Positions 2,146-42,404 of a stretch of 49,429 nt of DNA are shown piece by piece (position 1 is the first letter of the stretch; each line of letters begins with the position of its first letter). The DNA lies in the IMG/VR virus record IMGVR_UViG_3300025082_000011, positions 1-49,429 of that record; one strand, given 5' to 3'. Both the position numbers and the translations under genes were made by a program. The notes under the pieces were generated by a model, which saw only the letters and a program-made list of their open reading frames with translations, searched no databases and was not told where the DNA came from. The DNA is from a virus.

Positions 2146-2502
2146 TTAACTGTTGAATTGAGAGAAGACTTCAGCCTCAATAGCGTCGGCCACGACCCCC
2201 ACGTCAACCTGTAACCCGAGGTCCTTCAGAACCCGCTCCGAATAACGCACCGCATACATCTTCTTTTGGTGTGCGTCGGCCATCGCAATGTCCTTAAGCC
2301 CGACCTGCTCGGCTGCCTGCACACCTGCAGCTGCAGCTTTCTGCAACACGTACATAATCTCCGACCCAACCATTGCCTCCGCTCGAGCCCGCTGTACACC
2401 CAACCACTTGTAAACTGCGGCAGCTACCGCAGATGCGAGGGCAGTGAGCAGAACCGTCAGCACCTCTTGTACCACTGGTCCGAAAGCCTCTATGATATCC
2501 AT
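2146..2502 (-). CDS. LL-H-type phage holin
   Basis: This 118-residue protein has one N-terminal membrane helix (about residues 12-34: VLTVLLTALASAVAAAVYKW). After it come an Ala-rich helix (AAAAGVQAAEQVGLKD) and a C-terminal segment ending in DAIEAEVF. That order matches the LL-H holin family (Phage_holin_6_1), which forms lesions releasing or activating lysins. The start follows GGGAG. It is the last gene of the minus-strand early block, near two other membrane-anchored proteins with cell-wall domains (2935-4000), forming a lysis-like group. A separate lysin with small membrane proteins lies at 12067-14394. Confidence 0.7.
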   Translation of the reverse strand: MDIIEAFGPVVQEVLTVLLTALASAVAAAVYKWLGVQRARAEAMVGSEIMYVLQKAAAAGVQAAEQVGLKDIAMADAHQKKMYAVRYSERVLKDLGLQVDVGVVADAIEAEVFSQFNS

Positions 2503-2728: not shown

Positions 2729-2948
2729 CGGTTGCCTCTACAACTCTTGCTCCACACTCAGGACACGGCTCTTTTATATTCCGGTACGTGCTTGCCAGTA
2801 ACGCTGCCACAGCATCTGCGTTAGCAGGCTGTTTACCTTTATTCTTCTTGTGGGTTATAGTTATGTTCGGACCCCGTGTCTTTGCACCCCGACTGGCAAG
2901 CGTGTTACCCCTCTTGAACAATCCAGCGTGACGCTTACGGGAGGACAC
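2622..2948 (-). CDS. Basic zinc-ribbon protein (108 aa)
   Basis: The N-terminal 45 residues are very basic (SSRKRHAGLFKRG and HKKNKGKQ), suggesting nucleic-acid binding. Cys62, Cys65, Cys83 and Cys88 (CPEC ... CDNRMC) form a four-Cys ribbon like those at the C-termini of topoisomerase I. The gene overlaps its upstream neighbour by 14 nt and its downstream neighbour strongly. It is one of several small zinc-ribbon proteins in this genome. Function is unknown; RNA or DNA binding is inferred. Confidence 0.6.
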   Translation of the reverse strand: MSSRKRHAGLFKRGNTLASRGAKTRGPNITITHKKNKGKQPANADAVAALLASTYRNIKEPCPECGARVVEATDGNGQKKYWCDNRMCAYIKPKGKGVPKERRVYGGS

Positions 2949-3351
2949 AACCTATCCCCACAACCTCGCCCTCTTGTAACGTACTGTTCACGTACTGGAA
3001 ATTATGCTTTTGATTCATAGCCACTATGGCACTAGTATCTGGGTCTGTGTCCCACATAGGATAATCGAGGGCTCTACATACTTTCTTAGTGATGACCCAG
3101 TAATTCTCTCCCTCCCTAACTACATGGTTTGCGCCAACCGCCCTAGCAGTGGGCTCAACAGTTGGCACTTCTGTAGGAACCGCCGTCTGTGTTGGTATCG
3201 GTGCCCCTGTTGGTATCGGTGTCTCTGTTACAAACATAACTACTGGCTCCTCTGGGCTGGCCGTGCGCACCGTATGTGCGACCACAGCACCACCCACCGC
3301 CCCTACTATCGAGAGCATCACCACAAGCCAGACCACACGCTCTGTAGACAT
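2935..3351 (-). CDS. Membrane-anchored LysM-like protein
   Basis: Residues 6-25 form a membrane anchor or uncleaved signal (VVWLVVMLSIVGAVGGAVVA). Residues 45-68 are a Pro/Thr linker (PTGAPIPTQTAVPTEVPT). Residues 75-138 resemble one LysM module (VVREGENYWVITKKV, then AIVAMNQ and LQEGEVVGIG). LysM domains bind peptidoglycan, so the protein would tether the wall to the membrane face. Its ATG overlaps the stop of the upstream RlpA/3D-like frame (TAATG), implying coupled translation. The layout of anchor, PT-linker and wall domain is the same as in the predicted frameshift product next to it. PT-rich linkers of this kind are common in Chloroflexota secreted proteins. Confidence 0.7.
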   Translation of the reverse strand: MSTERVVWLVVMLSIVGAVGGAVVAHTVRTASPEEPVVMFVTETPIPTGAPIPTQTAVPTEVPTVEPTARAVGANHVVREGENYWVITKKVCRALDYPMWDTDPDTSAIVAMNQKHNFQYVNSTLQEGEVVGIGCVLP

Positions 3352-3770
3352 TATTTTACCTCCGCACTAGCTAGATAGTGCCCTGATGGCGACCACTTGT
3401 CCACCACCACATGACCGTTGTGTACATATACGGGTGTTTCCCTTAACAAATCCACGAAGTAGGAGCCGTCCGGGAGCTGTGTTATAGCACCCCCCCTGTC
3501 AACACACTTGAAGGTCTTACCGAGCTCTTTTATGTACCAATCAGACCCCAGTGGAAAGTCAGCAGGGCAGGCCAGACCGATGCCCACCCACTCCTGCCAC
3601 TCTCTGCCATACAGACTAGCGTGACACTTACCGTTGTGGACGTTGGCAGGGTGACAGTTAGGCCCTAGCAGGGCAGGGTCGTACCAACTTAAACGGACGG
3701 CCACGACCCTCACCGACGGAGTAGCAGTAGGTATTACTGTCGGCACCACAGTTGGCAGTGCCGTAGGCAC
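3351..3770 (-). CDS. RlpA/3D-like (double-psi barrel) domain, probably made by -1 frameshift
   Basis: The domain spans residues 25-115: LSWYDPALLG, then GLACPADFPLGSDW, FKCVDRGG and YFVDLL. It resembles the double-psi beta-barrel of RlpA/3D wall-active proteins, with the CVDRGG core and conserved Asp residues. A PT-linker (PTALPTVVPTVIPTATP) precedes it. As a stand-alone ORF it has only a GTG start at 3770 with a badly placed GAGG, and no signal peptide. The frame is open upstream to 3828 and overlaps the 69-aa anchor ORF. A -1 slip at 3809-3815 would give a 216-residue protein: anchor (64), junction (13) and this part (139). A wall-hydrolysing or wall-binding role in lysis is inferred. Confidence 0.65.
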   Translation of the reverse strand: MPTALPTVVPTVIPTATPSVRVVAVRLSWYDPALLGPNCHPANVHNGKCHASLYGREWQEWVGIGLACPADFPLGSDWYIKELGKTFKCVDRGGAITQLPDGSYFVDLLRETPVYVHNGHVVVDKWSPSGHYLASAEVK

Positions 3771-3782
3771 AACCTCGGTGAC

Positions 3783-3815
3783 GCGTCCCGCTACTGAGAC
3801 GCTTCTGCTTTTGGG
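3783..3815 (-). promoter_or_regulatory. Predicted programmed -1 ribosomal frameshift signal
   Basis: On the minus strand, CCCAAAA (3815-3809) is read in the zero frame as C CCA AAA, a canonical X XXY YYZ heptamer. After a 6-nt spacer (GCAGAA) comes a 7-bp stem: GCGTCTC (3802-3796) and GGGACGC (3789-3783), with one G-T pair and loop AGTAGC. The zero-frame stop TAG lies in that loop. Slipping back one base continues into the RlpA/3D-like frame. All three classical elements are seen directly; function is inferred. Confidence 0.6.
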
Positions 3816-4000
3816 TACCGATAGTACACACTACCCGGCATAATCACGTACCGTGCCGAGACATCCTCCAAAAGCAACGGCTCCTCTACTACTGTGCCCG
3901 GCTGGTCGGTTAGTAGCGGCAGCTGTTCCTGTAAAAAAAAAACCGCGCCCGCTATAGATACTGCCACTGCTATAGCTATGATTATTCTATTTCTTACCAT
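3791..4000 (-). CDS. Membrane anchor peptide (zero-frame product of frameshift pair)
   Basis: This 69-residue ORF has a membrane helix at residues 5-24 (RIIIAIAVAVSIAGAVFFL) and an acidic periplasm-like tail. It ends KAEASQ just after a slippery heptamer. Termination here would give a small anchored peptide; a -1 shift at Lys64 would append the PT-linker and RlpA/3D-like domain. The ATG at 4000 overlaps the upstream endonuclease gene by 14 nt. It sits in the lysis-like group of the early block. An alternative is an independent spanin- or holin-like peptide. Confidence 0.6.
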   Translation of the reverse strand: MVRNRIIIAIAVAVSIAGAVFFLQEQLPLLTDQPGTVVEEPLLLEDVSARYVIMPGSVYYRYPKAEASQ

Positions 4001-4340
4001 AATGTTTTCTCCTTTTCAAAGCCTTCTCGATTAACGTAAGAGCATCTCCCCTATGGATACCCTCGGCGGTGAACCGCAATACACACCAACTCTTGCCAGA
4101 CTTATCGGGTAAACAGGCCGCATTATATTTCTCAAGGTCCTGAATGAAGCCACGCGGTCGCACGTGCCTCCCCCGACTATAGATACCACCCTCGCATTCC
4201 GCGGCAACCATCTCATCAGGCCATGCGAAATCGAACCGCCATCGCCGGGGCATCGCAAAAGTATATTCCCGCTCTGCTTTCTTCACCTTAGCTACCTTAA
4301 GGTGAAAGGCAAGCTCCTCCTCCAACTCAGACTTACTCAA
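3987..4340 (-). CDS. Phage endonuclease-like protein (PD-(D/E)XK / DUF559-like)
   Basis: The 117-residue product carries a core typical of small phage nucleases: RRWRFDFAWP with Asp37, AECEGG with Glu48/Glu50, and then GRH (57-59) and DLEKYN (69-73), ending with WCVLRF. These positions match the D...ExK-type fold used by VSR/DUF559-like enzymes. It probably acts on branched or recombining DNA. It overlaps both neighbours by 8-14 nt, so it is part of the tightly packed early block. Confidence 0.7.
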   Translation of the reverse strand: MSKSELEEELAFHLKVAKVKKAEREYTFAMPRRWRFDFAWPDEMVAAECEGGIYSRGRHVRPRGFIQDLEKYNAACLPDKSGKSWCVLRFTAEGIHRGDALTLIEKALKRRKHYGKK

Positions 4341-4512: not shown

Positions 4513-4835
4513 AACAAGCTCCCTTGCATTAGATTTACTCTGGTCGGACTCCATTCTGTCAACAGCAAAGCTATCTGGTTACCGTATCCACGGTTCATTG
4601 AGAAACCCTTGTCCCTCACTGTACTCATACGAGCATGGTATTCCTTCCACGTCTCCTTATCTGTCACGCATACATGCTTGGCCCCCTTCTTCTCTGCATC
4701 ATCCAATGTACTGACATCAAAAGCAATGGCAGGTGGTCGCCTTAGAAAATGTCTGGACCCCTCTACCTGCTTATGGAATGTATCGCCCTCGATACACCCC
4801 ACCACCTTATTCTTCACACGTATTGTGTCACTCAT
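4509..4835 (-). CDS. Hypothetical protein with MSDTI start (108 aa)
   Basis: The product (VVGCIEGDTFHKQVEGSRHF, then RRPPAIAFDVSTLDDAEKKG and NRGYGNQIAL) looks like a conserved phage protein of unknown function; no catalytic motif is obvious. The chosen ATG at 4835 overlaps the upstream gene's end by 8 nt (ATGAGTGA). A GTG at 4862 is an alternative that would add a peptide encoded by a 44-bp repeat. The same 44 bp begins the upstream gene. Confidence 0.6.
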   Translation of the reverse strand: MSDTIRVKNKVVGCIEGDTFHKQVEGSRHFLRRPPAIAFDVSTLDDAEKKGAKHVCVTDKETWKEYHARMSTVRDKGFSMNRGYGNQIALLLTEWSPTRVNLMQGSLL

Positions 4836-4864
4836 TCTTCGACCCGACAAAGTGCTGCTCACAA
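4821..4864 (-). repeat. 44-bp direct repeat, copy 1 (gene-junction repeat)
   Basis: Identical over 44 bp to 5224-5267, 403 bp away. It contains the last codons of one gene (EQHFVGSKNE, stop) and the first codons of the next (MSDTI). In this copy both readings are used. Confidence 0.9.
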
Positions 4865-5238
4865 TAAAAGTCTGGCGACGCCTTGTTTTCTGTAATCACC
4901 AACTCGCCATCTTTATACCACTTGCCGTTATACTCCTCGGTGTGCCTGCACCTAGGAAAGTTGGAGCACCCACAAAATAGGCTACGTTGCTTCTCCTGCC
5001 GGTATCGGCCAACACGCACCAACATCACCCCGTCACACACTGGACACTCCATATCAGCTAGGGCTATTTGTTTCTCTCTATGCGTGTCTACTGTATACAT
5101 ATTCTTCACTAGGTCTTCCACTCCACACACCGAACAGGGCCGTCTATAGTTTCCAAGATAATATTGTTCTCGATAGTAATCAGACTTCTCCTTTTTGCTG
5201 GCGAATTGTTTAAACGCCCCTACTATTGTGTCACTCAT
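4828..5238 (-). CDS. Zinc-ribbon protein with two Cys clusters, MSDTI start (136 aa)
   Basis: Cys35/Cys38 (CSVC) begin a first cluster. Cys65/Cys68 (CPVC) with Cys89/Cys91/Cys97 (FCGCSNFPRC) form a ribbon very like the C-terminal zinc fingers of type IA topoisomerases. No topoisomerase catalytic part is present, so it is a free-standing nucleic-acid-binding module. ATG 5238 is chosen by analogy with the two downstream MSDTI genes; a GTG at 5265 adds nine residues from the 44-bp repeat. A role in replication or transcription is inferred from its place between nuclease genes. Confidence 0.6.
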   Translation of the reverse strand: MSDTIVGAFKQFASKKEKSDYYREQYYLGNYRRPCSVCGVEDLVKNMYTVDTHREKQIALADMECPVCDGVMLVRVGRYRQEKQRSLFCGCSNFPRCRHTEEYNGKWYKDGELVITENKASPDFYCEQHFVGSKNE

Positions 5239-5267
5239 TCTTCGACCCGACAAAGTGCTGCTCACAA
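5224..5267 (-). repeat. 44-bp direct repeat, copy 2
   Basis: Identical to 4821-4864. Here it also carries the out-of-context gene-end reading (EQHFVGSKNE, stop) immediately after the stop of the 5275-5661 gene. That reading is a vestige, showing that a gene-end/gene-start junction was duplicated. Confidence 0.9.
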
Positions 5268-12066: not shown

Positions 12067-12270
12067 TTAGCTGGAGAAGACCTTGAATACCAGAGCGATA
12101 ACCCCTGTGGCTATTAGTATTACTAATTTGACCACCCACGACAGGTGCGCCTCAATACTAGAGACACGGCTCGTCACGAGACTCAGTTCGGAAGTCATCC
12201 GCTCTGAAGAATGATTCAAGACTTGTATATGCCTAACGATGCGCTCAAGCTGTTTTTCCATCCCGCTCAC
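12067..12270 (-). CDS. XhlA-like small membrane protein (67 aa)
   Basis: Residues 1-45 form an amphipathic or coiled-coil helix (KQLERIVRHIQVLNHSSERM). Residues 47-65 form a membrane helix (VKLVILIATGVIALVFKVF). This is the pattern of haemolysin XhlA-type proteins, which act with holins. It overlaps the lysin gene end by 26 nt, supporting a lysis role. Confidence 0.65.
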   Translation of the reverse strand: MSGMEKQLERIVRHIQVLNHSSERMTSELSLVTSRVSSIEAHLSWVVKLVILIATGVIALVFKVFSS

Positions 12271-13762
12271 CTACAATCTGCGCCATCTCGCCCGTCCATG
12301 TCTCGTCATCGAACGAAGATGAGGCATCTGCTACAAACGAATACGCGCTATGGACCCCCTCTAAAGTGTCTAAGAACTTCACGTACTGTTGTGCTTTATC
12401 AATTTTCCCAGCTTTGCTTGGGTTAGAATACTCGGTAATAAATATAGGAACCCCGCCTTGCGGGTATAGTCTCCAACTCTGGCCCCCGCCCACGTTATAT
12501 ATATCAGCCTCGTGCTGCCAATAAGAATGACAACAGAGGAAATCCGCTTCGTTCACGGCGTCCCGCGCCTGATTGAAGAACTGCATGGCGTCGTACCTGA
12601 AGTCGTCTATCGCTGGCCCGGGGCTTAGTCCCGGCCATCCGAAGAGAGCTCCCGGCATACGGCCTAGAAAGTGGTCACGAACCTCTAGCCAGAACCGCGA
12701 GAAGCCCTCGCCGTCACACCAAGGGCCGTTAGGCTGGCATCCTTCTATTTTTAGATTAGGCTCATTGTGTATCTCGTAGTGCATCACGCCTTTATCATAC
12801 CACTTTTGGACATCTTGCCCTACATCGTGCACGAACTGTGCCACGGTGGAGCCCGGCCCCATTTTGGACATCATGCGGACCATGAAGAACATGTCCGGGT
12901 TGATAGCCTTCAATACATCCACACTATCTGCCGACTCATTACTCAGAGACTTGTATGCTTCGATGCGCCCCGCCTTTATCATCTCAACTATGTGCGGTAG
13001 GACAGCTACGCTGTGCCCCCAACAAGAATCTGCACTACCGTGCAATCCACACAGAACACCCCCCGTGACGCCCCCAGACGGCTTGTACGGGACGGGAGCA
13101 GGGTTATGCTCTCTTACTACCTTAACTCCGGGGTAATGCTGTCCAAACCACTCCTCTGCGCCCTTGTGTACACCATGTAGTATAACTATACGGCTATCTA
13201 AGTCGCCCAGCCCGGCGTCGTCGTAGGAGAAGCCAATCGTTGACCTGTCCTCGTACGCCCCTCGGGCTACGTTGGCGAACTCACCTATACTGGAGCTCGA
13301 GTCAAGCAGGTGGTAAACACGGGCGAACTGTGTGCGTGGTGCACCCCTCATTGCCACCACCTCCAGTAATCGTGCCTCGGCCTCACGTCGGCGAGTGAGC
13401 GCATCCAACCTCTTGCCCCCGGCATGGTCCATACGCCTCAGAAGATGCGCAGCCCCTTCAATATCACCTGAATTGAAAAGCTCCACGACGTTTTGAGTAC
13501 CCCGCAGACCGAGGTTGTAAGAAGCTGATAGTAAGGCAGTGCTTTGTTCGGGGGTGGGGTCTCGGGTAAGCTGCCCGGCGAGGCTTGTGGCGTAACTGCG
13601 GAGGTGGCTTCGTAGTCGTCTTGCGGCCACATCCTCTGTGATGGTTTCGCCTTCATGGCTAGGGCTTCCATATCCGATTGACCACTGGTGATAATCCCAG
13701 TATGCTTTCGGGGCGAACCCCTCCCACCTCTTGATAAATTCAATTGCGTGGTCAGTGACCAT
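12245..13762 (-). CDS. Two-domain lysin: GH24 lysozyme fused to a clan GH-A glycosidase-like domain
   Basis: Residues 3-135 are a phage GH24 muramidase: Glu14 (KRWEGF), Asp23 and Ser28 in YHQWSIGYG (Thr is usual), and the helix SASYNLGLRG. Residues 175-500 look like a TIM-barrel glycosidase of clan GH-A: GLHGSADSCWG, MFFMVRMMSK, HYEIHNEPNL with acid/base Glu334, FLCCHSYW, and FITEYSNPSK with nucleophile Glu444. The first domain would cut peptidoglycan glycan chains; the second could cut another wall or capsular polysaccharide. No signal peptide is seen. It is flanked by small membrane proteins, as in holin-endolysin cassettes. The two-hydrolase fusion is unusual. Confidence 0.75.
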   Translation of the reverse strand: MVTDHAIEFIKRWEGFAPKAYWDYHQWSIGYGSPSHEGETITEDVAARRLRSHLRSYATSLAGQLTRDPTPEQSTALLSASYNLGLRGTQNVVELFNSGDIEGAAHLLRRMDHAGGKRLDALTRRREAEARLLEVVAMRGAPRTQFARVYHLLDSSSSIGEFANVARGAYEDRSTIGFSYDDAGLGDLDSRIVILHGVHKGAEEWFGQHYPGVKVVREHNPAPVPYKPSGGVTGGVLCGLHGSADSCWGHSVAVLPHIVEMIKAGRIEAYKSLSNESADSVDVLKAINPDMFFMVRMMSKMGPGSTVAQFVHDVGQDVQKWYDKGVMHYEIHNEPNLKIEGCQPNGPWCDGEGFSRFWLEVRDHFLGRMPGALFGWPGLSPGPAIDDFRYDAMQFFNQARDAVNEADFLCCHSYWQHEADIYNVGGGQSWRLYPQGGVPIFITEYSNPSKAGKIDKAQQYVKFLDTLEGVHSAYSFVADASSSFDDETWTGEMAQIVGERDGKTA

Positions 13763-24260: not shown

Positions 24261-24776
24261 CTAAACAATACCCAGTGCTGAACGTAATGCCGTATCTGTG
24301 TATTCTGTTCGTTTCTCCTCGTAGGCACTACCGGTAAGGCCCTTTACCCATTGCTGAAAATCGATAATGTTGGATTCCGGCCTGCGCGGGTATACACCCG
24401 CAAGATAGCTCATGGTCGCATTAGACGGCTTTCCGCTCTTCAGGTCAAGAACGGCCAGTGGGTTTACCTCCACCTTGGGATATGTCGGTTTTGGAGGAGC
24501 AGTAACACGCCCTATTCGTAACGGGTCTGCCCTACGGTAATCGGTCGTACTACGAAAACCCAGCGCAGTACCGAATGGCTTGGGTAACTCGAAACCCCTA
24601 GCCGGAATGTCTGGATACAGGCTGTCCGCCCGGTATGTCGTCGCTCCGGTCTTCTTATCCACCAGAGCATCCACTTCCGGGTCTATGTACTGTTCCGCCC
24701 AGATAGGGTGGTCCTCAGCGTACAAGTCCTTCATACGCCACAATGCCTTTAGCCGTGCGTAGTCGTCTCCGCTCAT
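24261..24776 (-). CDS. Hypothetical virion-region protein (171 aa)
   Basis: The sequence is Pro/Tyr/Arg-rich and has no recognised domain (YRADSLYPDIPARGFELP, PPKPTYPKVEVNPLAVLDL). Its ATG overlaps the stop of the 4,214-residue gene (ATGA), so its translation is coupled to it. The next gene is the scaffold. Its ALWRMKDLYAEDHPIWAEQY start recalls short tail segments of the giant protein, so it may once have been part of it or be packaged with it. Confidence 0.55.
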   Translation of the reverse strand: MSGDDYARLKALWRMKDLYAEDHPIWAEQYIDPEVDALVDKKTGATTYRADSLYPDIPARGFELPKPFGTALGFRSTTDYRRADPLRIGRVTAPPKPTYPKVEVNPLAVLDLKSGKPSNATMSYLAGVYPRRPESNIIDFQQWVKGLTGSAYEEKRTEYTDTALRSALGIV

Positions 24777-27700
24777 GATTCTCTAAATGCCCTCTTTTCG
24801 TCTGCTGTTAGGCCGAAGTAGAAGGACTGCAAATCGAATATATCGTCCCCAAGTATAGCCTGCGCATAACCCCTGAACTCATCGTTGAGCCCCTCTGCGG
24901 TCATAAAGTCACGGGTCTGGTCCATAGTTGGTTCCTCTACGCCCATCATCATCTTGGCATCCATAATCATATCGTAGAAAGCGTGGAACTCCTCGTTGTC
25001 CCCAAAGGCTGTTGGGTCACCATCGGTCTTGTACCAGAAGTCCAGCCACTCCACCTCGTCACCCATTGCGTCCCGTAAAGCCTTCTTGTTGGGGCCAACC
25101 CATGCGATAACATTCCAAATCTCTCGTGCCATTGTCTCTTCAGGAGTATCATTACGGGTCATCTTCTCTTCCACAGAGTAGATGTCACGCCCGTTGATGG
25201 CGTCACGCAAGTCTTTCTCCTCGAACTGCTGCCCGTAAAGATTGAAGACCCACTCTACTATCTCGTCCTCGCCCGGCCTCTCGGGGAACTCGTCTGCGAA
25301 TATCTGCTCGGCCACGTCCCGCTCGTAACCACTACGCTCTGCAACCAAGTCCCAATAACGATTGTAGAAGTTATCTCTCCAGACCCGGTTGAGCGCATCG
25401 TACACACCATCTGTGGTCAAGTCCCAAGTGTCGTATGCCTCGCGGTTTGCCATAGCCAACAACACGCTACCGTCACCAATGGCCGTTTGTAAATCTACAC
25501 CTGTTACCTTGGTCGTCTCTACTCCATCTATGACCACGCCCTCTTCCTCTTCTGTAAGCTCCTCAACCACATGCGCTAAAGCAGGCGCTGCGCTCGCTGG
25601 TATCACGACCTCATACCAGTTCTCCAAGCGCTCCTCGTACTCAGGGAAAGTCTCCTCGGTCTTATCGTAGCGCGGTTTCAAGTCTCGTAAGTACCCCATG
25701 AACACACCAATGATGTACTCTTTTATAGTGGCGTCAGACTTGAAGTAGGGGGACCACTTGAAGCGAGCCTCGGGGTACTTCTCTTTCAGCTCATCGTCAG
25801 CATCGTAATACTCTGTGGCCAGCTCTGCTGCACCTTGTGAGTCCCCTATCGCAAGCTCGAATATCCCGGCCTGCAGGTTAGCCCAGAGCCGGTTCCTCTC
25901 GGCAAGATAGGCTGTCTTCTGTTGCGAGGTTGTTATCCCGCTACTGACTTCCTCCCACCACCGGTCCCTATAAACAGGCTCGTCATTCTCGTCGCGCACC
26001 CATGATATTGAGCCATAAAGGCCACGCAGGACACCTTCGCCAGTCTCGTAGCGCCACGTCTTGTATATCTCTTCGTAATTCGCATCGGATGCAATCTTAC
26101 GGGCCAGCCGGTTAGCCTCGTCCCGCACACGGAATAACTCCCGTTCACCTACACCGAACTTCTTTGCGTATGCGCCTGAAAGATAACCGAACAAGCGGGC
26201 GGTATACTCGCTACGCTCGATGTTGTCCCGGGCCTGCTCGTACAGCTCGCCCTCCTGTGATTGCAGGGCGGTCTCTGCCAAGCGGGCGAGACGTAGTTTT
26301 TCAGACGGGTCAGTCGTATCTGCGATAGTCACCGCAGTTATAGAGAGTAACTCCCGGGCCACAAGGTAACCCTTCCAAGGCACCTGCGGTGTGAGATAGT
26401 CTGACTCATTCCAGTTAATCGTGGCTTCAGTCTTTTGAATAAGATAGCGCTGTGTCCACGGGGGTATAAGGTCGAGCTGACCAAACAAGGACCGCTCTGG
26501 GTACTGGTTCTCGTCAATAATATTAGTCATCTTGCGGATGGGAATATCCACCCAAGGTGCCAAGTACAGCCCCACCTTTCCGCCGTGTGCATAGAGATAG
26601 TTCACTAAGCGGTTGACTAACGGTGCGTCGGGGTCGATAGTGTCTGTCGTATCAAAGCTGGGGCCGCGCTGTGGCACAACATCCGTGAACGAGAGCGAGT
26701 TGAAGGGGTCGTACCACCAGTCAGTGTCGCCCAACTGGAAGTGGCCCCGCAATCTCGGTAGTGGACCGCCCGCGTTTCGTGTAGCTCCAGCCTGAAGCTG
26801 CATCCTCTCAGAGAGCTCTTGGATTTTGTTGTAGTTGCTCAATATGCGTGGGTTAGCACCCAAGGTCTGGACCCACCACGGGATAGAGCGGGATGGGAAC
26901 TTCCAGAATGGGATGACTGTCTTCATCGCCTCGTCTATCACCATGTCACGACTGTAATCAATCATGGCGTCGTTGGTGTGGCCAACGGCACCGCGCAACT
27001 CTAGCTCCCTTAGCTCACGCACGATAGAAGAGTTCTCACCGAACAGCTTTACCAGCTCTTCTGGTATCTCGCCTCGCTCCGTACCAAACATGGCGATATC
27101 ATTCAGGTACGCCTTAAGCATCTTAGCTCTTTCGGCCCACTGAGTGACACCACCCCAATCTTCCATAGTCACAGGACCGGTCTTGCCCAAGAGGTCATTC
27201 TCCCATTTCCTCAGTGCGTCACTGAAAACACTGGTGTCAGCCTGTGCCTGCATCAAAAATTGGGACGCCATGGAGCCCGGAGGGTGACCGTCGATTGCCT
27301 CATGGAAGTTCTGGGTCAGAACCTCTCCGCCATTCGGGTCAAAGCCGCGCCGTGATATGGTGTCTTGGATTTCATCGTAGGGGATGATATCGTCAAGGGT
27401 ATAACGAGTGCCGTGGTCTACGTTGATGGAATCTAGCAGGGCTGCGTGATACCTGAACGGCCCCTCTCCGTTTTTCAACCTGTCCCATCCGGTCCGGCGC
27501 AAGTCCGCCTGTCCTACCTCCCGTAACCTGATACCACTACCTTTGCGGAGCTCCTCCATGGTTCTGAGGCTCCGCTCGAACCCATCTCCCACGGGGCGGC
27601 TCACGCGGATGGGTGTGCCGAACTGTTCGGTTATGCCCCTAGAGAGGCTCCTGACGTTTCTGGGTACTGGTGGAAATGGAATATCTCCCCAAAAGCGCTC

Positions 27701-30700
27701 TATATTCTCCGCTGCCTTATCCCACACATATCTGGGGCGCCTTGCCGTTTTGTCCGCCTGTATAGGTAATAAGTTTAAGCCTTCTGCCACGGCAATACGT
27801 CCAGTTATTCTGTCGCCGCGCCGGATGCCGTAACCATCAGGGGAGCTGTATGGGTTCCACTGCCCCACCTCTTTTGCAAAATCACTTGCTTCAGGGTTCG
27901 CTGCACGCCATTGGCGCACGAAGTCATCCTCGAAAGCCTCGTCTGTCCAGCGTCGCCCAATAGCTTTACCCCAAGCATTCGCGGTTGGGTTCCCGAAACC
28001 AACACTAATGTCTACTGGTATTAGTCGGTCGGGGTCCAACTCGCGCGCAAGCGTAGCACGCCCACGGCCCTCATGCGATGTAATCCTCCAAGTATTACCT
28101 GCGGGGTCCATTGCCACCTCAACAAAAGGTGGCGCAAATCTTGCCTCACCTTTTTCTATCAGTTCCCTAGCCCACGGAAAGAACGCTTCTTTATAAGGAC
28201 TTCTGTCCCGCGGGGGATTGAGTGTAAGAAAGTCCTTTGGCTTCATATAGGCCGTATAAGTATGGATGTCAGGACTTAGAACCCTTTTTGTATATGGGCG
28301 GTTACCTTTTACATGACCCATACTTGTAGCGCCAACGGTATCCCCCATTTCTCTAGACCAACGCATAATGCTTTGGGGGTCTAAATCGGTGTGGGATGCG
28401 AATCTCCTGCCGGTATGACGCACAGGAACATCAGTTGATATTATCTCCCGCCCGAGGTACGACGGCTCGTCCACGTATCCGGGCAACCGCTCCATCAGTT
28501 CTCTGATGGGCGCGTCTACGGCACTGTCGCCCGTAAGCACCATCTTCAAGGGTGGTAAGAATACCTTCTGCTCTGGTACATCTGTCGCTAAACGGGAGGG
28601 CATCCACGCGGACTCCATCGTAGCCAGACCAGAGTTGGCGTGACTGCTCCGCACCAGCGTCTCGTTGGTGAGGGCCCAGCGTGCCAGCGGGTCATCAATG
28701 GTCCTGATATGCGCCTGCCATCCCGCGACATCGCCTACCACGTCGAACTCTGAACGCAGGGCGAAATGGGAAATGTAGTCGTGGGTCGCCCGCAACAAGT
28801 CACCCTCACTCATCTGGTACATTACCGGCGCACCGGCCTCGTCCAGCATCGGCACGATTTTCCCGGTCTCGTCACGTATGACGGCGGGTACCTCGTGAGT
28901 GGTCTTTGCCAGCAATGGGTGTGACCTGCGGCGGCTCAATTCGCTCGCTCCGAAGCTCCGCTCCGTTGGTCTGAACAGCAGGCGGTCGTTACCCATAACG
29001 TCGTCGCGCAGGTGCTGTGCGAAGCGGTAGGGCTCATCCTCACCAAAGAACGCCTGCACCTGTACGTCTAATTTCCTGTACTGCCGCCCTATCTGCTGTG
29101 TCAGGTGTTCATACGCTACCTTAACGATTTCACTTGTGTCATTGAGCGGGGCATCATCCAGTATCTTAGCCGCGGCTGTCTGCAACGCCTCTTGGCTCTC
29201 GTAACCGGCTGCCTTCGCCGCGGGACTATCTGGATAGTTCTTCAAAGAAAAGAAGCCAGACTTCGTCTTCGGGAAAAGCAAAGGCCCCTGCCCCAGCTCG
29301 TCCCGGTAGGCATTGATAACCTTGATGCCCCGGTCATTCACATCGGGCATAAACTGGTACGGGTGACCCTTCCCCACCGTGCCTTTCAGCGGCTTTCCAA
29401 CAACCTTGACCGCGCTCGGGTCTATCACCATGTAGGACACGACACCCTCTGCCTCCATAGTATTAATGTAAGGAATGACATCGTAGCCCTGCTCCAACAG
29501 CTCGGCACCGCGAAGATAGCCTTCTCGGGCCCCCTGTTCATCAAAGCGGCCGACCTCAAACAGAAACATCCTATCGGCATCCAGCCTCTCGTCGAGTATC
29601 CGGCCCTCTGGCAAATACGGCTGCTTGGGCGTGATTTTTACCTTGTTGATAAATACCTCGTCGTCCGCGACGCTTGGCTTGGCAAGACGGGCGCGGGCGG
29701 CCTCTTCTGTCCCGGCGTGGAAGCCGAAGAAGCCCCCTTCGCCTTTTAGGCCGATTGTTTCCAGAGGCTCCATGCCACCGTGGTAGGCAACAATTGGCTC
29801 TCCGCTTAGTATGCGTTTCGCCTGTATAGCGTAGCCCTCGGGGTCCTCCAGTAGCCTGTCAAAGACAACGCGAATGTCGTCACTCAGTTCTAGGTCAAGA
29901 GGCGAACCCGTGACCACCCGGTAGATTTTAAGGAGGTAATCCCTGATGCGGTCGAAGAGGCTCTTTAGTCCCGGGGCAGGTAACGCACCATCCAGCAGGT
30001 AACGCTCGAAGCCGCGGGCAAATATCTCCTCGGCACTGAAGGTGAGGTCGCCACCCACAACCATCTTGATTTCGTCTATCTGGTTACCGCGTGCGTCAAT
30101 AAAGAAGGATGCGAGTTGCTCATCACTGAGTTCACCCGCCGCCTTGAGTTTGTTCAGGCGCTTGGCCTCTTTGTTTATCCATCCCTTTACAACTCGGTAA
30201 TCGGCCGAGTTCTCACGCAATATGTTACGCAGGAAGGGGTGTCCGGCGAACTCGTGCACCAGCGTGGAGAAGTCTGCCGACTCGAACAGGCGGACGAAGG
30301 CTCTCTCGCCCTCAAACTTAACCATGCCCTTTGCCCCCTGCATCAGCGCTGTCGGGTCCTTGAGGCCCTTTCTCATCTCGTCATTGATTGACATGTAGTG
30401 GATTGGCTCAAGAAAGTCCTCGACCTCACCGCCACCCAGATTACGGGCCTCCCAAGTTGGCTGCTCGCCAGTTTTGAGGTTCCATGTCTCCATGCCCCCG
30501 TCCCACTGCTTCCCGAACCTCTTCATAGAGGAGACCATCTCTTCGTCGTAACCCTGCACCATACCGCCTGACACTATCTCAATGTCGTGGGGGTCCAGCG
30601 TTCCCCGCCAAGGCGCCAAGTCGTATGAGTCAGCTGGCGAACGGCCACGCAGGACGTGCTTCCCATTCTTTTTGGGCGAGGCCAGCAGGGCTTTAGCGTT

Positions 30701-33700
30701 TTCCGGGTCAATCCACCTGTAGAGGTCTTGCTCTTGAATCTCAAACATCTCAGCACTGTTGTGCTCCGCGGGGTGGCCTTGAGGTACTACCCTTCCGGTG
30801 ATGTCGTCGACCCGAGCATCGCTCGTGTGTTGGTAGACTTTGAACTCCTTTGTCTCGGGGTTCCACGTAATATGGCCCACCTCATCGGGCGAGATGTATT
30901 TGTCGTAGCGCACGGACTGCTGTTTGCCAGTGGTCCATGCGATAGCGTCGTAGTTGCCCTCGGCGGCGTATCGCACCATCCGCTTCATGCCGACGTCCTT
31001 CCAGTCGTCTGAGAAGGGCGGGGGCGGAACCCCGCGTTTGGCAGCATTTAGGAAACCTTCAGTTTCCGTGATTTGTAACGAGTATGGAGTAGGGGTGCCC
31101 GACAGGGCGGCGCCCTGTCGGGCATCCGACACGGGCGGGCGAATCGTTCTGCGTATTTCATCAGCGCGTTCGCGTGCCAACTTGCGGTAGAGATGATAGA
31201 TTTCGTCTGAGATTACCTTGCCCAAATATTCAGGAGCTACTGGAAGTCCACCTAAAGTAGCGGTTTCTAGCAACCGAATTAAGTCGCCAGTTTCTGTGTC
31301 GAGACGCCAGCCATACCGGCCACCAAAATGGTGACCACCGGGGACCTCTGTTGCCGCATCCATAAAGGACGCCAGTTCTGTTTTAAGACGTTCGTCCCAC
31401 TCTACCGTCTCGCCCCAAGAGCGCCCCCGAAGTGCGTCAGTGGCAGCCGTGCCCTCTTCTATCACCCTACGCAGTCTTTCTCTCGCGTCCGGCCTGAGCT
31501 TGCCCTGTGTCATCAACTCTGAGGTGAGCCCCCCGGGTAGTTTGCGCCTTAGCAAAGCCTCCCCTCCCGGGCCCACCTCTGGGGTGCCGATGATGTCCCT
31601 TAGTCCCCTGCTAAAATTGGACTTGTCCAGCGCCCTCCGCACCCGATGGACATACTCAGTAATACCTACCTCAGCGGTGGACGGAAAGAGTGAATTAGGA
31701 GACACAAGGGTTAGGACCTTAAGGTCCGCATCAAGCTCAACAGCGCCCCCGAAGTCCGGGTGTTTATCGAGGGCACTACGGTAACTGTGGTCAAGTCCCA
31801 GTAGCTGCTCCTCGAGCTCGGCGACACGGGTGGCATCCCGAACACCCGTCTTGTTGGCCGTCTGTATCCAGTCGCTCTGTAGTTCCTCTATGAACAGTAC
31901 GCGCTTTCCGTCCACCACGCGGTCAGTGGCACGCATGTGCATGACGATGTTGGGCACCTCCCGCATCTGGGCGCTTCGGAAGTGCTGACTCATATAGGCC
32001 TTTTCCGTATGCCTGTTCACCGGCAGGGTTATCAGGTACTCGCGGTAGTTCTCACCCATGTCGCCCACCACGCCATCCGGTATCCCTTTGCTCCCAAGTA
32101 TCCAGTCGTTATACCTGTAGAGGGGCTTTCCGCTTATCCCCTCCTTCTTCACCCACTCCATGGCGGCCTCTTCGGCTTCAATCCTAATGTTTCCGGCGCC
32201 CACTCCCGCGATTCTTTCAGGGTCCACGATATCCACACGCCGCACGTCATACTGCATACCATCCACATCCATTGTGTTTTCTCTCATCCACCCGTCTGCG
32301 GTTTGGGAGTATATGGTGTTGTCGGCCTCGTCGAAGATTTCAATCTTGGTTACATGGGCATCCGCTGCGTTCCGCCATCCAGCGGTCTCAACAAAGGGAT
32401 GTCCGACTTCTCCCGCCGTCTTGTTCCACGTTATCTCCCTGCGGAGCTTGGTCATGGGAGAAACGTGCACATCCATTTTATAGTCATCAAAGGTACCCAC
32501 GTCCTGTCCATGCGTTCGCCAATCCATTTCGTCAAAGAGCCTCGTGGGCGTGACGTCCTCGATGATAAGGCGGTTATCAATCAGATGCTTCTCGACTGCG
32601 GCGCGGGGTACCTTACCCTCTCGGTAAAGGAGTTTGCCCTTCTTTATGCTGTGGTGACCGCCGCCAATCTCAAGGGCTCGGGCGGCTGCTGCATCTGCAT
32701 CCGTCCACACGAGGCCCGTGGTCTCTACCGTTATTCCTCCATACTGCTCATCTACAAATTTGAGCGGGTCTACAACCCCGTACCTGTCGTAGACTACCCA
32801 GCCGTTTATGTCGGCTTTCAGTTTACTCTGCTCATCAAGGAAATCGGGTAACCCGGTCCACTTGACCTCGGCCTGAGAGATGCGGTCTACGCCCGCACGC
32901 GGTTTTCTTCTGAGTTCTTTCAGCCATTTACCGGGCACGGCGGACACCAGCTGGGTGTCGTTAAATGCCCGGGCAAGGCGTGAGTAGTACCACTCGTGGG
33001 TCTCACCGACCTGCGCTAGGAAACTCCCGTCACTGGCCACATCGCCGTAGCTACCCGTAATGGTACTCAGGTATCGGCTCCGGTAGTAGTCGTCCAGCGT
33101 ATCGGCCTCGCCGCGCCTCACCGCTGTCGCTCCGTTGAGGTCAATAAGCTCGAGAAGGGTATCCACCTCCTTCTCGTCGAAGGCCATGTCGCCGGACATC
33201 TGTACCAGCTCGGCACGGAGTTTCTCGCGTGAGACAGGGAGTGTATTTAGTACGCTTTTCTGGTCGAAGTCGACAATACTGACAGGCCCTGCCGCCGCCT
33301 GATTGTTCCATTCTCCTTTACCGCGCCTGACCAACTCCTCAGCAACCTCAGTTTGTCGGGCTCTTACGGCTCTACCCGCTGTGGTGCGCAAATCGGTCGT
33401 GCCCATCTTTTGACCTATCTCGACTAACTCCGTCTGTAACTCCGCCTCGCTCATATCTGCGACAGCCCTCGCACGCGGCACGCCCCTCCCTTCGGCCACG
33501 GCCTGCACTTCGGCTGCCTCCCTAGTGGACCCGCCGTCAATCAGTTCCTGTACGCGGCTATTGAAATCGTCTGGACCGCCCACCGGCATCTCCACCCTTT
33601 CGATGGGCACGCGGATAACGTCCTCATCTCTCTGCACGTTGTAAAAAATACCATTGACCTCAACAAGATGGTCCCGCTCGATGGTCGCACCTGCGGCAGC

Positions 33701-36700
33701 AGCAGGGCGGGGGCGGGCTCCGCCTTCAGCCACATAGCCGACATCAGGGCGGGGAGGGGCTCCTGTGCCAGCATCGGCCATAGCCTTATACTTGGCATCT
33801 ATAGCGCGGTCGCCGTAACTCACCCAAATCTCGTCTATCCGGCCTTGAGGTCCAACCCCTTGTCGGCCATAGTTTGTGAGCCACTCATTGAAAAGACTTA
33901 TTTCGTCAGGGTTTAGCTTTTTACCAAGCAGCTCGGTAACTTTCGGAACACCGTCTATGGTCTCTACGACCGTACCGTCTAAGCGCTGGATAAACTCCAT
34001 CATAGTGGGGTTCTGTGTGGGCCACTTATCCTGCTTGGCCATCTCAAGGAGATGGCGCGTTTGCCTCTCGTAGGCATCTACAAGCTGTTCTCTTGCCCAC
34101 GGAATTTTTCTCCCCTCGACCCCTATTACCTTGCTCCCCTTTAAGTTGTCTAGTGCCGCAAAACCCCTAGCCACCGCACCGTTCATGCCGCTAATGGATA
34201 GTGTGTATTTGTCGAGCCGGGCCATGTTGTTAAGGTCATCGGGGTAGGGGACGCCCGCCACTATCCTCTCGTGCGCCCGGTCCCTCAAGTGTTCATATAC
34301 CTCGCGTAGGTTTGCTTGTCCCTGCCGATGGCCAGCTCTTTGCCCCGGGAACCTCTCCTCGTAAGGATGACGTACTGCGTCGTCGATGTTCCTGCCCTCG
34401 CGGGCACCGCGCACCTTGGCCTCGTCAACGACTCCCGTGGGGTCTTTTAGACCGCTTCCACCCTCCAACCATGCCTTGTGGTTTTCCAGCAACTCCTCTT
34501 CCGCTCGTCGCCGCACGTTGGCGATGTCATCTGGGCCGAGGGTAGCGCCTCTCGCGGCTGCCTCCCTACTAGCTTCCTCTAGGTTCCTTAAGAAGGTCTG
34601 GGTGAAGTCGTTTATCATTCCCTCTGAAAAACCGGCCTCACGCAGGATAGTAAGCACATCTTCTGGTATCAGCTCTTCCCAGCGCAGGTTCCCGGCACGG
34701 GCGCTCTTCAATATCTCGTCAAGCTCTTCTGGACTATTGGAGGCGGTGTTCCACATACGTAACGCATCCTTGCGCATAGCCGGGTCCTTGATAGCCTGCC
34801 GGATAAGCTCTTGGCCGTATTTACCGTCCAGCTGGTTAAATACCTTCCAGTAACTATCGTGGTACAAACGCATCCGGTGAGCCATCTCAAAGGCATCATT
34901 GAAATCGCCAAGCCCTTCAGCAACATTTTGTAGGTTTACATTTCTTATAATCGGTATATCTTTTAAGACAGGGAACTCGCGAGTGATGAATGGTAACTTT
35001 ACCATCCCGAGACTGCTTGCCGCATCTGGGTCCAAAACACTTACAGGGGAGAAGCCGAAGAAAGCCCTAACAAAGTCTGTAACGCCTATCTTGCCCTCTT
35101 CTATCACCCGCTGTGTGATAGGACCGACGTGCTGTTTCTCGCGCAGAGCTCGCACGAAACCCTCCATGATTTGAGGTGGGAAATAGTTTCTCTTATTCGA
35201 CACAATGGTTTGCAGGGACTGGAACGTATTGCCACCGGCCAGCATGAAGCGCAGGCGTGTGTCAAGCATATTCCTTACGGTGAACCCCGGGCGGGCAGAA
35301 AGGTTGGCCTCAATCCATATAGCGCGGGCGTTACGCCACAACTTGCCAAAGCCACTTCCTTTTACATGCTCAGTAGGAGCATCAATTAGGTTTCCTGCCT
35401 TGTCAATTATTTGTCTGTTAATAGGCACTTGGTTCTGCTGCTGGTAAAGGTTCTGCATACTTTGGCGCAACTTATCAGTTACCTCTTTATTCTTTTGCGT
35501 AACGCTCAGGCTGTCCCAGTCCACAAAATCACCGGCCGCCTTTTTGTATGCGTCCCCAATCAGTGTGCCGAGGCTGCGTTCCCCGGTCTTAAACGCGAGG
35601 CCGAAGTGCCCTCCCTCTTCGCTCAGTCGTTTTATTCTTGTGATGTCACGCGGGCTCATGTTAGTAATGATGCTAGGGTCACCGTTGGCATACTTCTGCC
35701 ACAGTTCGGGTGAAATCACCTCGCTGGGTATTTCGTCCGCACCTGCTTTCACGGTCTTGCCAGCAGTGCGTGCCATGCGGTTTAAGACATCAATAAAGTT
35801 TCTGGTATGAGTCCTTGCAGCGGAACGCGGTATCTCCGCAATAAGCCCTTTGATAAGCGGGGCACGAGCAGCTACCTTCGCTGTAGTCCCCAGCGTCCAT
35901 TTCACCGGCCAGAACACCGCCTTGAAAACCGCAGGGGGTATGATGTTGAGCGGGTCGAGTATCACCTCTCCCCAGAACTCTATCATCGGGTCTTCGTACA
36001 GCTTCTTGAGGTCGTCGGTCTCTACCCGGGTGAGTGCCCGCCCAGCCTCATTTTCCGCAAACTCCAACGCGGCGAGGAACTCCTTTTCCTTCTCCGGTTG
36101 GGTCACCCATGTATACGCAAACTCACGGGCATCCTCCCATTCCTCGGAGGTCTTACCCTGCCACGTATCTATAGCACCGGTCTCGAAGAACGTCTCAGCA
36201 CGCACTCGGGTTAGTTCCCCGGTCGCACTTAGCCGCTGCAATTCAGCTTTCACTTCTCTGGATTCTTTTCCAATACGCCCGAACCCAGCCACAGCCGCAC
36301 GGGCCAACTCCCCGGTACGCTCTTGTTTGTCCTTGACGTTCTGTACTCCACCCTGCCACGCAGAGGTGATGATATTGAGTGTACTCTGCTGGGACGCGAT
36401 ACCTCGGCCTGCCCCCCTTATAGCCCCCGGGATAAACGAGAACACTTGGACGGGGTTGAAACGCAATCCACCGGTGAGACCACTGATAAAGGTGCTTAGG
36501 GTATTCCCTATTCCACTCCCCCAAGCTCCCCAGTAGTCGACCTGCTCTTTGCCCAGCTTGCTTTCTCCCCTCACCGCGCCCACGTACTGCTTGTTAGCCA
36601 GAGAGGGGCCCGCAAGCCAATCCCAGACAAACTTCTCTCCCTTGCCGCGGCTTCGGTTTAGCTGTAGCTTATTCCCGTCAGGAAGGTATACAGTTTCGTC

Positions 36701-37417
36701 CCTGTCCTCATCGGGGAGCACAAGGCGCTTATCAGTCGCCGGTAATGCCAGTGGGGTTGGAGGTTGTTGTTCTGGGGGCTCTACATTGCGCAGGGCTGAT
36801 ACCGGCCCCACAAGCGCTTCGTAATAGTCCCCGTAACGATAATGGTACTCGGCCGCAGAGCGTTCTGACATCCCGCCGACGAACTCGGCCAGTCGTCTAT
36901 CCTTGAGACCGTTTTGTTTACCAATCTTGTAATACTCGGATATTCTGGGCATCATCAGCTGGAACTGCAACAGGGGTTCCTGCCGCTCTTCCTCGCTGTA
37001 GCCGTAGCCGACACCCTCGTCGTGCAGCTGGAATAGGCCCACAGAATGACCGTCGTCTCCAACGCTCAGGTGGTCGCCCCCAGATTCTGCGCCTATAAGA
37101 GAGAGTGTGATTTCAGGTGGCACATCATAGAACCGGCCATAGTCGCTGGCCAGCTCGTACCACTGCAGAAGACCATCCTTCTTAGGGGGTGCTGCCTGTA
37201 TTTTGTCCCGGACAGGCTCTGCGGGTTTATCCCGCGCCATCTTGATTTCGGCGGCAAACCCATCGGTATCATCCCAGAACTTCCCGGTACGCTTCTCGCG
37301 GAGACCCTGAAGTTCCCCACGGAGCTTGGAAGACGCTAGTCCCGTGTCCTTGGGCGGTAAGACAGGCTTTTGCCTGCGCCTTTGCGCCAGTCCACGGAGT
37401 TGTTCTTTGATTGGCAT
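24773..37417 (-). CDS. Giant multi-domain virion (polyvalent) protein, 4,214 aa
   Basis: Domains seen in order are as follows. Residues 84-200 are a lytic transglycosylase (catalytic Glu111 in GAESGG, then GLFQLHDEG). Residues 310-350 are hydrophobic Gly-rich segments. Around 705 lies ARPGFTVRNMLD, seen in large phage polyvalent proteins. Around 1478-1525 is an LPD-like segment (FNDTQLVSAVPGKWLKEL, then WTGLPDFL), and around 1790-1850 NYREYLITLPV to FIEELQSDW. At 2383-2395 is a zincin motif HEFAGH (His2388). Around 2540-2660 is an ADP-ribosyltransferase-like fold (VAYHGG, FFGFHAG). The C-terminal third is helical with FPSRSIPWWVQTLG. Such proteins are packaged in the capsid and ejected: the transglycosylase opens the wall and the enzymes act in the host. 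It corresponds in place and size to the N4 virion RNA polymerase, but no polymerase motifs were recognised. Confidence 0.8.
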   Translation of the reverse strand: MPIKEQLRGLAQRRRQKPVLPPKDTGLASSKLRGELQGLREKRTGKFWDDTDGFAAEIKMARDKPAEPVRDKIQAAPPKKDGLLQWYELASDYGRFYDVPPEITLSLIGAESGGDHLSVGDDGHSVGLFQLHDEGVGYGYSEEERQEPLLQFQLMMPRISEYYKIGKQNGLKDRRLAEFVGGMSERSAAEYHYRYGDYYEALVGPVSALRNVEPPEQQPPTPLALPATDKRLVLPDEDRDETVYLPDGNKLQLNRSRGKGEKFVWDWLAGPSLANKQYVGAVRGESKLGKEQVDYWGAWGSGIGNTLSTFISGLTGGLRFNPVQVFSFIPGAIRGAGRGIASQQSTLNIITSAWQGGVQNVKDKQERTGELARAAVAGFGRIGKESREVKAELQRLSATGELTRVRAETFFETGAIDTWQGKTSEEWEDAREFAYTWVTQPEKEKEFLAALEFAENEAGRALTRVETDDLKKLYEDPMIEFWGEVILDPLNIIPPAVFKAVFWPVKWTLGTTAKVAARAPLIKGLIAEIPRSAARTHTRNFIDVLNRMARTAGKTVKAGADEIPSEVISPELWQKYANGDPSIITNMSPRDITRIKRLSEEGGHFGLAFKTGERSLGTLIGDAYKKAAGDFVDWDSLSVTQKNKEVTDKLRQSMQNLYQQQNQVPINRQIIDKAGNLIDAPTEHVKGSGFGKLWRNARAIWIEANLSARPGFTVRNMLDTRLRFMLAGGNTFQSLQTIVSNKRNYFPPQIMEGFVRALREKQHVGPITQRVIEEGKIGVTDFVRAFFGFSPVSVLDPDAASSLGMVKLPFITREFPVLKDIPIIRNVNLQNVAEGLGDFNDAFEMAHRMRLYHDSYWKVFNQLDGKYGQELIRQAIKDPAMRKDALRMWNTASNSPEELDEILKSARAGNLRWEELIPEDVLTILREAGFSEGMINDFTQTFLRNLEEASREAAARGATLGPDDIANVRRRAEEELLENHKAWLEGGSGLKDPTGVVDEAKVRGAREGRNIDDAVRHPYEERFPGQRAGHRQGQANLREVYEHLRDRAHERIVAGVPYPDDLNNMARLDKYTLSISGMNGAVARGFAALDNLKGSKVIGVEGRKIPWAREQLVDAYERQTRHLLEMAKQDKWPTQNPTMMEFIQRLDGTVVETIDGVPKVTELLGKKLNPDEISLFNEWLTNYGRQGVGPQGRIDEIWVSYGDRAIDAKYKAMADAGTGAPPRPDVGYVAEGGARPRPAAAAGATIERDHLVEVNGIFYNVQRDEDVIRVPIERVEMPVGGPDDFNSRVQELIDGGSTREAAEVQAVAEGRGVPRARAVADMSEAELQTELVEIGQKMGTTDLRTTAGRAVRARQTEVAEELVRRGKGEWNNQAAAGPVSIVDFDQKSVLNTLPVSREKLRAELVQMSGDMAFDEKEVDTLLELIDLNGATAVRRGEADTLDDYYRSRYLSTITGSYGDVASDGSFLAQVGETHEWYYSRLARAFNDTQLVSAVPGKWLKELRRKPRAGVDRISQAEVKWTGLPDFLDEQSKLKADINGWVVYDRYGVVDPLKFVDEQYGGITVETTGLVWTDADAAAARALEIGGGHHSIKKGKLLYREGKVPRAAVEKHLIDNRLIIEDVTPTRLFDEMDWRTHGQDVGTFDDYKMDVHVSPMTKLRREITWNKTAGEVGHPFVETAGWRNAADAHVTKIEIFDEADNTIYSQTADGWMRENTMDVDGMQYDVRRVDIVDPERIAGVGAGNIRIEAEEAAMEWVKKEGISGKPLYRYNDWILGSKGIPDGVVGDMGENYREYLITLPVNRHTEKAYMSQHFRSAQMREVPNIVMHMRATDRVVDGKRVLFIEELQSDWIQTANKTGVRDATRVAELEEQLLGLDHSYRSALDKHPDFGGAVELDADLKVLTLVSPNSLFPSTAEVGITEYVHRVRRALDKSNFSRGLRDIIGTPEVGPGGEALLRRKLPGGLTSELMTQGKLRPDARERLRRVIEEGTAATDALRGRSWGETVEWDERLKTELASFMDAATEVPGGHHFGGRYGWRLDTETGDLIRLLETATLGGLPVAPEYLGKVISDEIYHLYRKLARERADEIRRTIRPPVSDARQGAALSGTPTPYSLQITETEGFLNAAKRGVPPPPFSDDWKDVGMKRMVRYAAEGNYDAIAWTTGKQQSVRYDKYISPDEVGHITWNPETKEFKVYQHTSDARVDDITGRVVPQGHPAEHNSAEMFEIQEQDLYRWIDPENAKALLASPKKNGKHVLRGRSPADSYDLAPWRGTLDPHDIEIVSGGMVQGYDEEMVSSMKRFGKQWDGGMETWNLKTGEQPTWEARNLGGGEVEDFLEPIHYMSINDEMRKGLKDPTALMQGAKGMVKFEGERAFVRLFESADFSTLVHEFAGHPFLRNILRENSADYRVVKGWINKEAKRLNKLKAAGELSDEQLASFFIDARGNQIDEIKMVVGGDLTFSAEEIFARGFERYLLDGALPAPGLKSLFDRIRDYLLKIYRVVTGSPLDLELSDDIRVVFDRLLEDPEGYAIQAKRILSGEPIVAYHGGMEPLETIGLKGEGGFFGFHAGTEEAARARLAKPSVADDEVFINKVKITPKQPYLPEGRILDERLDADRMFLFEVGRFDEQGAREGYLRGAELLEQGYDVIPYINTMEAEGVVSYMVIDPSAVKVVGKPLKGTVGKGHPYQFMPDVNDRGIKVINAYRDELGQGPLLFPKTKSGFFSLKNYPDSPAAKAAGYESQEALQTAAAKILDDAPLNDTSEIVKVAYEHLTQQIGRQYRKLDVQVQAFFGEDEPYRFAQHLRDDVMGNDRLLFRPTERSFGASELSRRRSHPLLAKTTHEVPAVIRDETGKIVPMLDEAGAPVMYQMSEGDLLRATHDYISHFALRSEFDVVGDVAGWQAHIRTIDDPLARWALTNETLVRSSHANSGLATMESAWMPSRLATDVPEQKVFLPPLKMVLTGDSAVDAPIRELMERLPGYVDEPSYLGREIISTDVPVRHTGRRFASHTDLDPQSIMRWSREMGDTVGATSMGHVKGNRPYTKRVLSPDIHTYTAYMKPKDFLTLNPPRDRSPYKEAFFPWARELIEKGEARFAPPFVEVAMDPAGNTWRITSHEGRGRATLARELDPDRLIPVDISVGFGNPTANAWGKAIGRRWTDEAFEDDFVRQWRAANPEASDFAKEVGQWNPYSSPDGYGIRRGDRITGRIAVAEGLNLLPIQADKTARRPRYVWDKAAENIERFWGDIPFPPVPRNVRSLSRGITEQFGTPIRVSRPVGDGFERSLRTMEELRKGSGIRLREVGQADLRRTGWDRLKNGEGPFRYHAALLDSINVDHGTRYTLDDIIPYDEIQDTISRRGFDPNGGEVLTQNFHEAIDGHPPGSMASQFLMQAQADTSVFSDALRKWENDLLGKTGPVTMEDWGGVTQWAERAKMLKAYLNDIAMFGTERGEIPEELVKLFGENSSIVRELRELELRGAVGHTNDAMIDYSRDMVIDEAMKTVIPFWKFPSRSIPWWVQTLGANPRILSNYNKIQELSERMQLQAGATRNAGGPLPRLRGHFQLGDTDWWYDPFNSLSFTDVVPQRGPSFDTTDTIDPDAPLVNRLVNYLYAHGGKVGLYLAPWVDIPIRKMTNIIDENQYPERSLFGQLDLIPPWTQRYLIQKTEATINWNESDYLTPQVPWKGYLVARELLSITAVTIADTTDPSEKLRLARLAETALQSQEGELYEQARDNIERSEYTARLFGYLSGAYAKKFGVGERELFRVRDEANRLARKIASDANYEEIYKTWRYETGEGVLRGLYGSISWVRDENDEPVYRDRWWEEVSSGITTSQQKTAYLAERNRLWANLQAGIFELAIGDSQGAAELATEYYDADDELKEKYPEARFKWSPYFKSDATIKEYIIGVFMGYLRDLKPRYDKTEETFPEYEERLENWYEVVIPASAAPALAHVVEELTEEEEGVVIDGVETTKVTGVDLQTAIGDGSVLLAMANREAYDTWDLTTDGVYDALNRVWRDNFYNRYWDLVAERSGYERDVAEQIFADEFPERPGEDEIVEWVFNLYGQQFEEKDLRDAINGRDIYSVEEKMTRNDTPEETMAREIWNVIAWVGPNKKALRDAMGDEVEWLDFWYKTDGDPTAFGDNEEFHAFYDMIMDAKMMMGVEEPTMDQTRDFMTAEGLNDEFRGYAQAILGDDIFDLQSFYFGLTADEKRAFRES

Positions 37418-42205: not shown

Positions 42206-42404
42206 CGGTAGACTCCTTCTTGCCCATCTCGGCAATATATTCATTTACGGACTGCGGTCCGTATTTCATGTTCAAGTAAGCGAAGTCTCCCGGCTCTAAA
42301 CCACTGAAGAACTCACGCTTCCGCTCAGGACGGTCCAAGGCAGCACGCCAGCGGTTATCCGCGTTCTCGGCAATCGTTTCCCACCGGCGCTGTAACTTAG
42401 TCAA
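42186..42404 (-). CDS. Small hypothetical protein (72 aa)
   Basis: A basic helical protein (LQRRWETIAENADNRWRAAL, LDRPERKREFFSGL) ending in KKESTDAMVGK, with no family match. It overlaps the next gene's ATG by 20 nt and starts 8 nt inside the upstream gene. It is a small packaging-module gene between portal and internal virion proteins. Confidence 0.6.
   Translation of the reverse strand: MTKLQRRWETIAENADNRWRAALDRPERKREFFSGLEPGDFAYLNMKYGPQSVNEYIAEMGKKESTDAMVGK

Follow-up and report, generated by a model that had tools for sequence, protein, structure and literature searches.

A gene on the minus strand of a viral record of IMG/VR (49,429 bases, analysed as a whole and hereafter called the window) is split between two reading frames and is likely expressed by programmed -1 ribosomal frameshifting, which would give both a membrane anchor and an anchored wall-domain protein. 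The initial annotation had read the site in this way, and this reading is now supported by an independent lineage with the same heptamer, the same spacer length and a hairpin. The window split is known from this one record. The signal, the split, its recurrence, the selection on both halves in the L031 clade and the predicted fold were observed, and from there the occurrence of frameshifting, its efficiency and the wall-hydrolase role are inferences. The window site is judged a genuine and probably working case of programmed -1 frameshifting, in a phage gene for an anchored wall protein.

The heptamer, its phase, the 6-nt spacer, the 7-bp stem and the TAG within the loop were all found to be exact on re-reading the sequence (Table 1). 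The heptamer is in phase because the strand is read TA(C CCA AAA) GCA. No stop interrupts the -1 frame between 3830 and 3354, past the slip site, and the wall domain is open in this frame only. It has no ATG upstream of the domain, and its earliest start-like codon is a poorly placed GTG at 3770, with a purine run (GAGG) just 2 nt away, so that the domain indeed lacks a good start. The joined product was computed as 64 + 152 = 216 aa, the predicted length, and the YVIMPGS segment of its anchor aligns with two single-frame relatives, L006 and L010.

Table 1. Features of the split gene and of its neighbours (window coordinates)
Feature	Coordinates	Strand	Remarks
Zero-frame anchor ORF, 69 aa	3791..4000	(-)	ATG at 4000, AGGAG upstream; hydrophobic segment near the N-terminus
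Slippery heptamer C CCA AAA, in phase	3809..3815	(-)	Same in-phase heptamer at L031:3950-3956
6-nt spacer GCAGAA	3803..3808	(-)	Spacer also 6 nt in the L031 clade
7-bp stem and 6-nt loop	3783..3802	(-)	-11.5 kcal/mol; arms GCGTCTC/GGGACGC at 3802-3796/3789-3783; loop 3795-3790, containing the zero-frame TAG (3793-3791)
-1 frame: PT-rich linker and 3D/double-psi-beta-barrel-type domain	3351..3830	(-)	No good start; domain type from AlphaFold2 model and fold matches
Neighbour: hydrophobic N-terminus, PT linker and LysM-like domain in one frame	2935..3351	(-)	LysM assigned by eye; no Pfam match
Holin (Phage_holin_6_1)	2146..2502	(-)	About 1 kb downstream of the split gene
Upstream gene, phrog_503	3987..4340	(-)	By eye, a Vsr-like nuclease; precedes the gene in L006 too

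The sequence C_CC.A_AA.A belongs to the V_VV.A_AA.R class, the most efficient in E. coli (PMC4066793), and spacers of 5-9 nt are typical of -1 frameshift sites (PMC5009743). Both the window and L031 carry an in-phase X XXY YYZ within the overlap of the zero-frame and -1 ORFs, and in both lineages a hairpin is predicted 6 nt downstream of the heptamer, within the usual range. The 24-nt hairpin of the window was not equalled by any of 200 shuffled sequences, and the excess of folding is weak over a 76-nt stretch (z -1.35). An Rfam search returned nothing. In the long ORFs of the window, in-phase XXXAAAZ occurs at 5 of 12,255 codons and CCCAAAA at none, giving a probability of 0.0045 for at least one XXXAAAZ among the 11 possible sites of the overlap, and of 0.043 for any XXXYYYZ among the same sites. 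As strong a hairpin, looked for in the 22 nt that begin 5 nt past the heptamer, occurs at 0.4% of coding positions. Since these window figures were obtained post hoc, independent sequences constitute the stronger test.

Such a lineage was found in L031, L032, L036 and L037, four contigs from four metagenomes representing three distinct sequences. Their anchor ORF ends in NPK or SPK followed by the stop, and the domain lies in the -1 frame. The heptamer C CCA AAA stands in phase, immediately followed by TAG (TAA in L036 and L037), and 6 nt past it starts a hairpin with 12 bp and a single bulge. This hairpin reaches -18.3 kcal/mol, and none of 200 shuffles was as good (folded for L031 and L032). 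The probability of an XXXAAAZ in the 22-site overlap of L031 is 0.025, computed from the coding regions of L031 itself. In addition, an AGGA motif lies 12 nt upstream of the heptamer in all four contigs, a distance close to the spacing of known bacterial stimulators, as in dnaX. The second half has no usable start, the candidates being TTG at 4028 or an ATA overlapping the stop. Comparison of L031, L032 and L036 gave low pN/pS values in the proposed frames (anchor, frame 0: 0.03-0.15; domain, frame -1: 0.03-0.08), the other frames reaching at least 0.9; therefore, both halves are under purifying selection. Conservation of the heptamer inside the clade is that of three closely related sequences, and the recurrence of heptamer, spacer length and hairpin between this clade and the window is what the alignment of homologues called for by the initial annotation brought to light.

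The majority of the family is organized differently. DNA and protein searches with the window sequence against annotated phages found nothing, a direct protein scan for the domain gave nothing, and one weak plasmid 3D match was obtained. Near-identical junctions with 0-4 additional bases were looked for by pattern, and none was found. No close relative of the window region was found, and very near records may be absent from the collections; the relatives of the capsid gene (L002-L005) stop short of the split gene. About 20 more distant family members were nevertheless collected, most of them with anchor, linker and domain in one frame. L006 and L010, reached via gene neighbours, thus encode the three parts as one ORF of 222 and 219 aa, respectively, sitting behind a similar small nuclease-like gene. 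The alignment scans returned 23 loci and then 38, partly overlapping and nearly all single-frame. The N-terminal segment of L040 is short, and L055, L066 and L071 are truncated by the contig end. As these relatives encode the two halves together, the halves belong to one protein, and the proposed plan of anchor, linker and wall domain is borne out. The 19 single-frame members have no in-phase XXXAAAR heptamer, and their sole XXXAAAZ is a GGGAAAC close to the membrane segment in L059. Two separate clades share the heptamer and the spacer length, and single-frame relatives, which do not require the signal, lack it. As a separate observation, one viral contig of 28.6 kb carries two diverged copies of the domain family, L024 and L055, one at each end.

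The slip signal could merely act as a savior, rescuing a tolerated one-base deletion while the short anchor has no role of its own. This variant of the frameshifting explanation, with which it is compatible, is considered rather unlikely. In its favour, single-frame relatives manage without an anchor-only product, and frameshifting that corrects indels has been described (Atkins 2016, PMC5009743). Against it, the same arrangement occurs in two lineages and a stop was retained through the change from TAG to TAA in L036, both of which are better explained by selection for two products.

More improbable still is that the window gene is truly single-frame, its break being due to a one-base error of sequencing or assembly or to a recent one-base deletion, and that the slip signal there is a matter of chance. 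One lost base would account for the window split, and homologues with both parts in one frame, which the initial annotation took as the mark of an assembly error, do make up most relatives, including the closest one, L024. By that measure an error in the window is suggested, but the argument is outweighed by the split L031 clade: the break falls at the same heptamer and spacer length as the split in four independent contigs. Moreover, the chance of the window heptamer and hairpin is low, and the large ORFs of the window are intact. Translation of the domain as a separate protein by reinitiation after the anchor stop (from GTG 3770, or from TTG 4028 or ATA in the L031 clade) is very improbable: coupled reinitiation is common in phages and the stop and -1 frame overlap closely, but the -1 frame of the window offers nothing better than the ill-spaced GTG, ATA initiates very poorly, this route does not account for the recurrent heptamer and hairpin, and complete single-frame relatives keep the domain joined to an N-terminal hydrophobic segment.

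Two other sites of slippage were discarded. At the T10 run of the anchor, the other two frames reach stops before the domain, and the anchor is still aligned to relatives beyond the run. Transcriptional slippage at A4 was rejected, such a run being too short for it.

In the domain tree, the window pairs with single-frame L024, its closest family member (95/86), and L031/L036 fall within single-frame L038/L039/L040 (99/96 and 95/97). Each split lineage has its nearest sequenced relatives among single-frame genes, so that two origins of the device are probable. The family probably descends from a single-ORF ancestor, and the split and its slip signal were probably gained at least twice, two gains being the simplest history that the sequences suggest; a single ancestral signal followed by several losses may be the alternative history, deep branches being weak.

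According to the frameshifting model, the majority of ribosomes would translate the 69-aa anchor and terminate at TAG. Some would pause at the hairpin, where the tRNAs on CCA and AAA could slip one base back onto CCC and AAA, and translation would continue into the linker and the wall domain. The outcome would be a 216-aa membrane-anchored protein of 3D/double-psi-barrel type encoded near a holin, and the likely purpose would be to make a little wall-active protein together with an excess of bare anchor. The ratio of the two products could, as the initial annotation proposed, tune lysis. A broader proposal, namely that one family of membrane-anchored wall enzymes of phages acquired a programmed C CCA AAA -1 frameshift at least twice, setting the ratio of bare anchor to anchored enzyme as a translational control of envelope degradation, is tentative and falls just short of an even chance.

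The AlphaFold2 model of the domain has a pLDDT of 92.7. Its top Foldseek match in the PDB is chain E of the Diffocin baseplate (E 5e-3, none reaching E <= 1e-3), with weak fold scores for MltA (probability 0.90) and YuiC (0.95), and viral matches are phage '3D' proteins with E about 2e-4. Three Asp are invariant in 23 sequences (D91, D107 and D124, window ORF numbering). None of the 23 members matches 3D or DPBB_1 at E <= 0.01, Pfam does not recognise the domain, and a sequence profile against the PDB gave nothing meaningful. The model suggests a 3D/double-psi-barrel-like domain by fold, family membership not being claimed. The wall domain had been described as RlpA/3D-like; it appears to resemble the double-psi barrels of 3D/MltA/YuiC type more than RlpA proper. 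Like the 3D/MltA/YuiC and RlpA wall enzymes, the phage family combines a predicted double-psi beta-barrel fold with three invariant Asp; unlike them, it is a phage-borne protein with a membrane anchor and a PT linker, no Pfam match and weak fold scores. The domain is a putative wall hydrolase, and the basic residues ahead of the hydrophobic segment suggest that it would face outward.

An in-phase X XXY YYZ with a downstream structure, and a short and a long product from one start, are also features of IS3/IS911, dnaX and phage tail-assembly chaperones. The window gene belongs to another family and would serve another purpose; its longer product would carry, beyond a membrane anchor, an extracytoplasmic wall domain. 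To our knowledge, convincing phage frameshift genes are rare outside tail-chaperone genes and a few others. Frameshifting in a lysis-type gene was initially thought to be new; this no longer stands, because PRFect, citing Shearman 1994, names lysins among phage genes with earlier frameshift reports (PMC10885494), and no first claim is made. As cited there, the precedent resembles the window gene in being a wall-active phage protein with a frameshift between overlapping genes; a common family is not claimed. The literature searched, in which few subscription papers were represented, yielded no account of such a signal for phage proteins of 3D/RlpA type. PRFect also treats as frameshift candidates those genes that are joined in certain genomes and separate in others (PMC10885494), and the window family displays this pattern. 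Since single-frame and frameshifted states coexist in one family, it can be tested directly how a recoding signal is gained and what the short product does. Automatic gene calling can break such wall proteins in two or drop them in error.

The assignment of the gene to a lysis region is correct as regards the holin (Table 1), whereas the endolysin (12245-13762) lies about 8 kb from the split gene. The L010 homologue of this endolysin (G012:C1:9589-11136) has one TAA within the match. Small proteins similar to the phrog_503 gene product are also encoded in L010 and L031. Among cellular proteins, the best relative comes from Anaerolineaceae and has a hydrophobic segment, a PT linker and two domain copies; it is chromosomal (L072 2719-3762), and its second copy lacks the DRGG motif. 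Weak matches came from a second Anaerolineales record, from a record of Chloroflexi and from an archaeal bin. Among 400 Chloroflexota genomes, one contained the domain, no other gave a strong match, and the capsid gene of the window was present in none. These cellular relatives of the domain hint at Chloroflexota hosts.

Elsewhere in the window, two giant ORFs of 4214 and 1608 aa (24773-42244, minus strand) lie between the portal and the major capsid protein, the former without a Pfam match and the latter without a PHROG match. A strong terminator-like hairpin (2112-2143) separates the convergent integrase and holin genes. An exact 44-nt direct repeat (4821-4864 and 5224-5267) spans the starts of two adjoining small genes, so that both begin MSSTLSGRRMSDTI.
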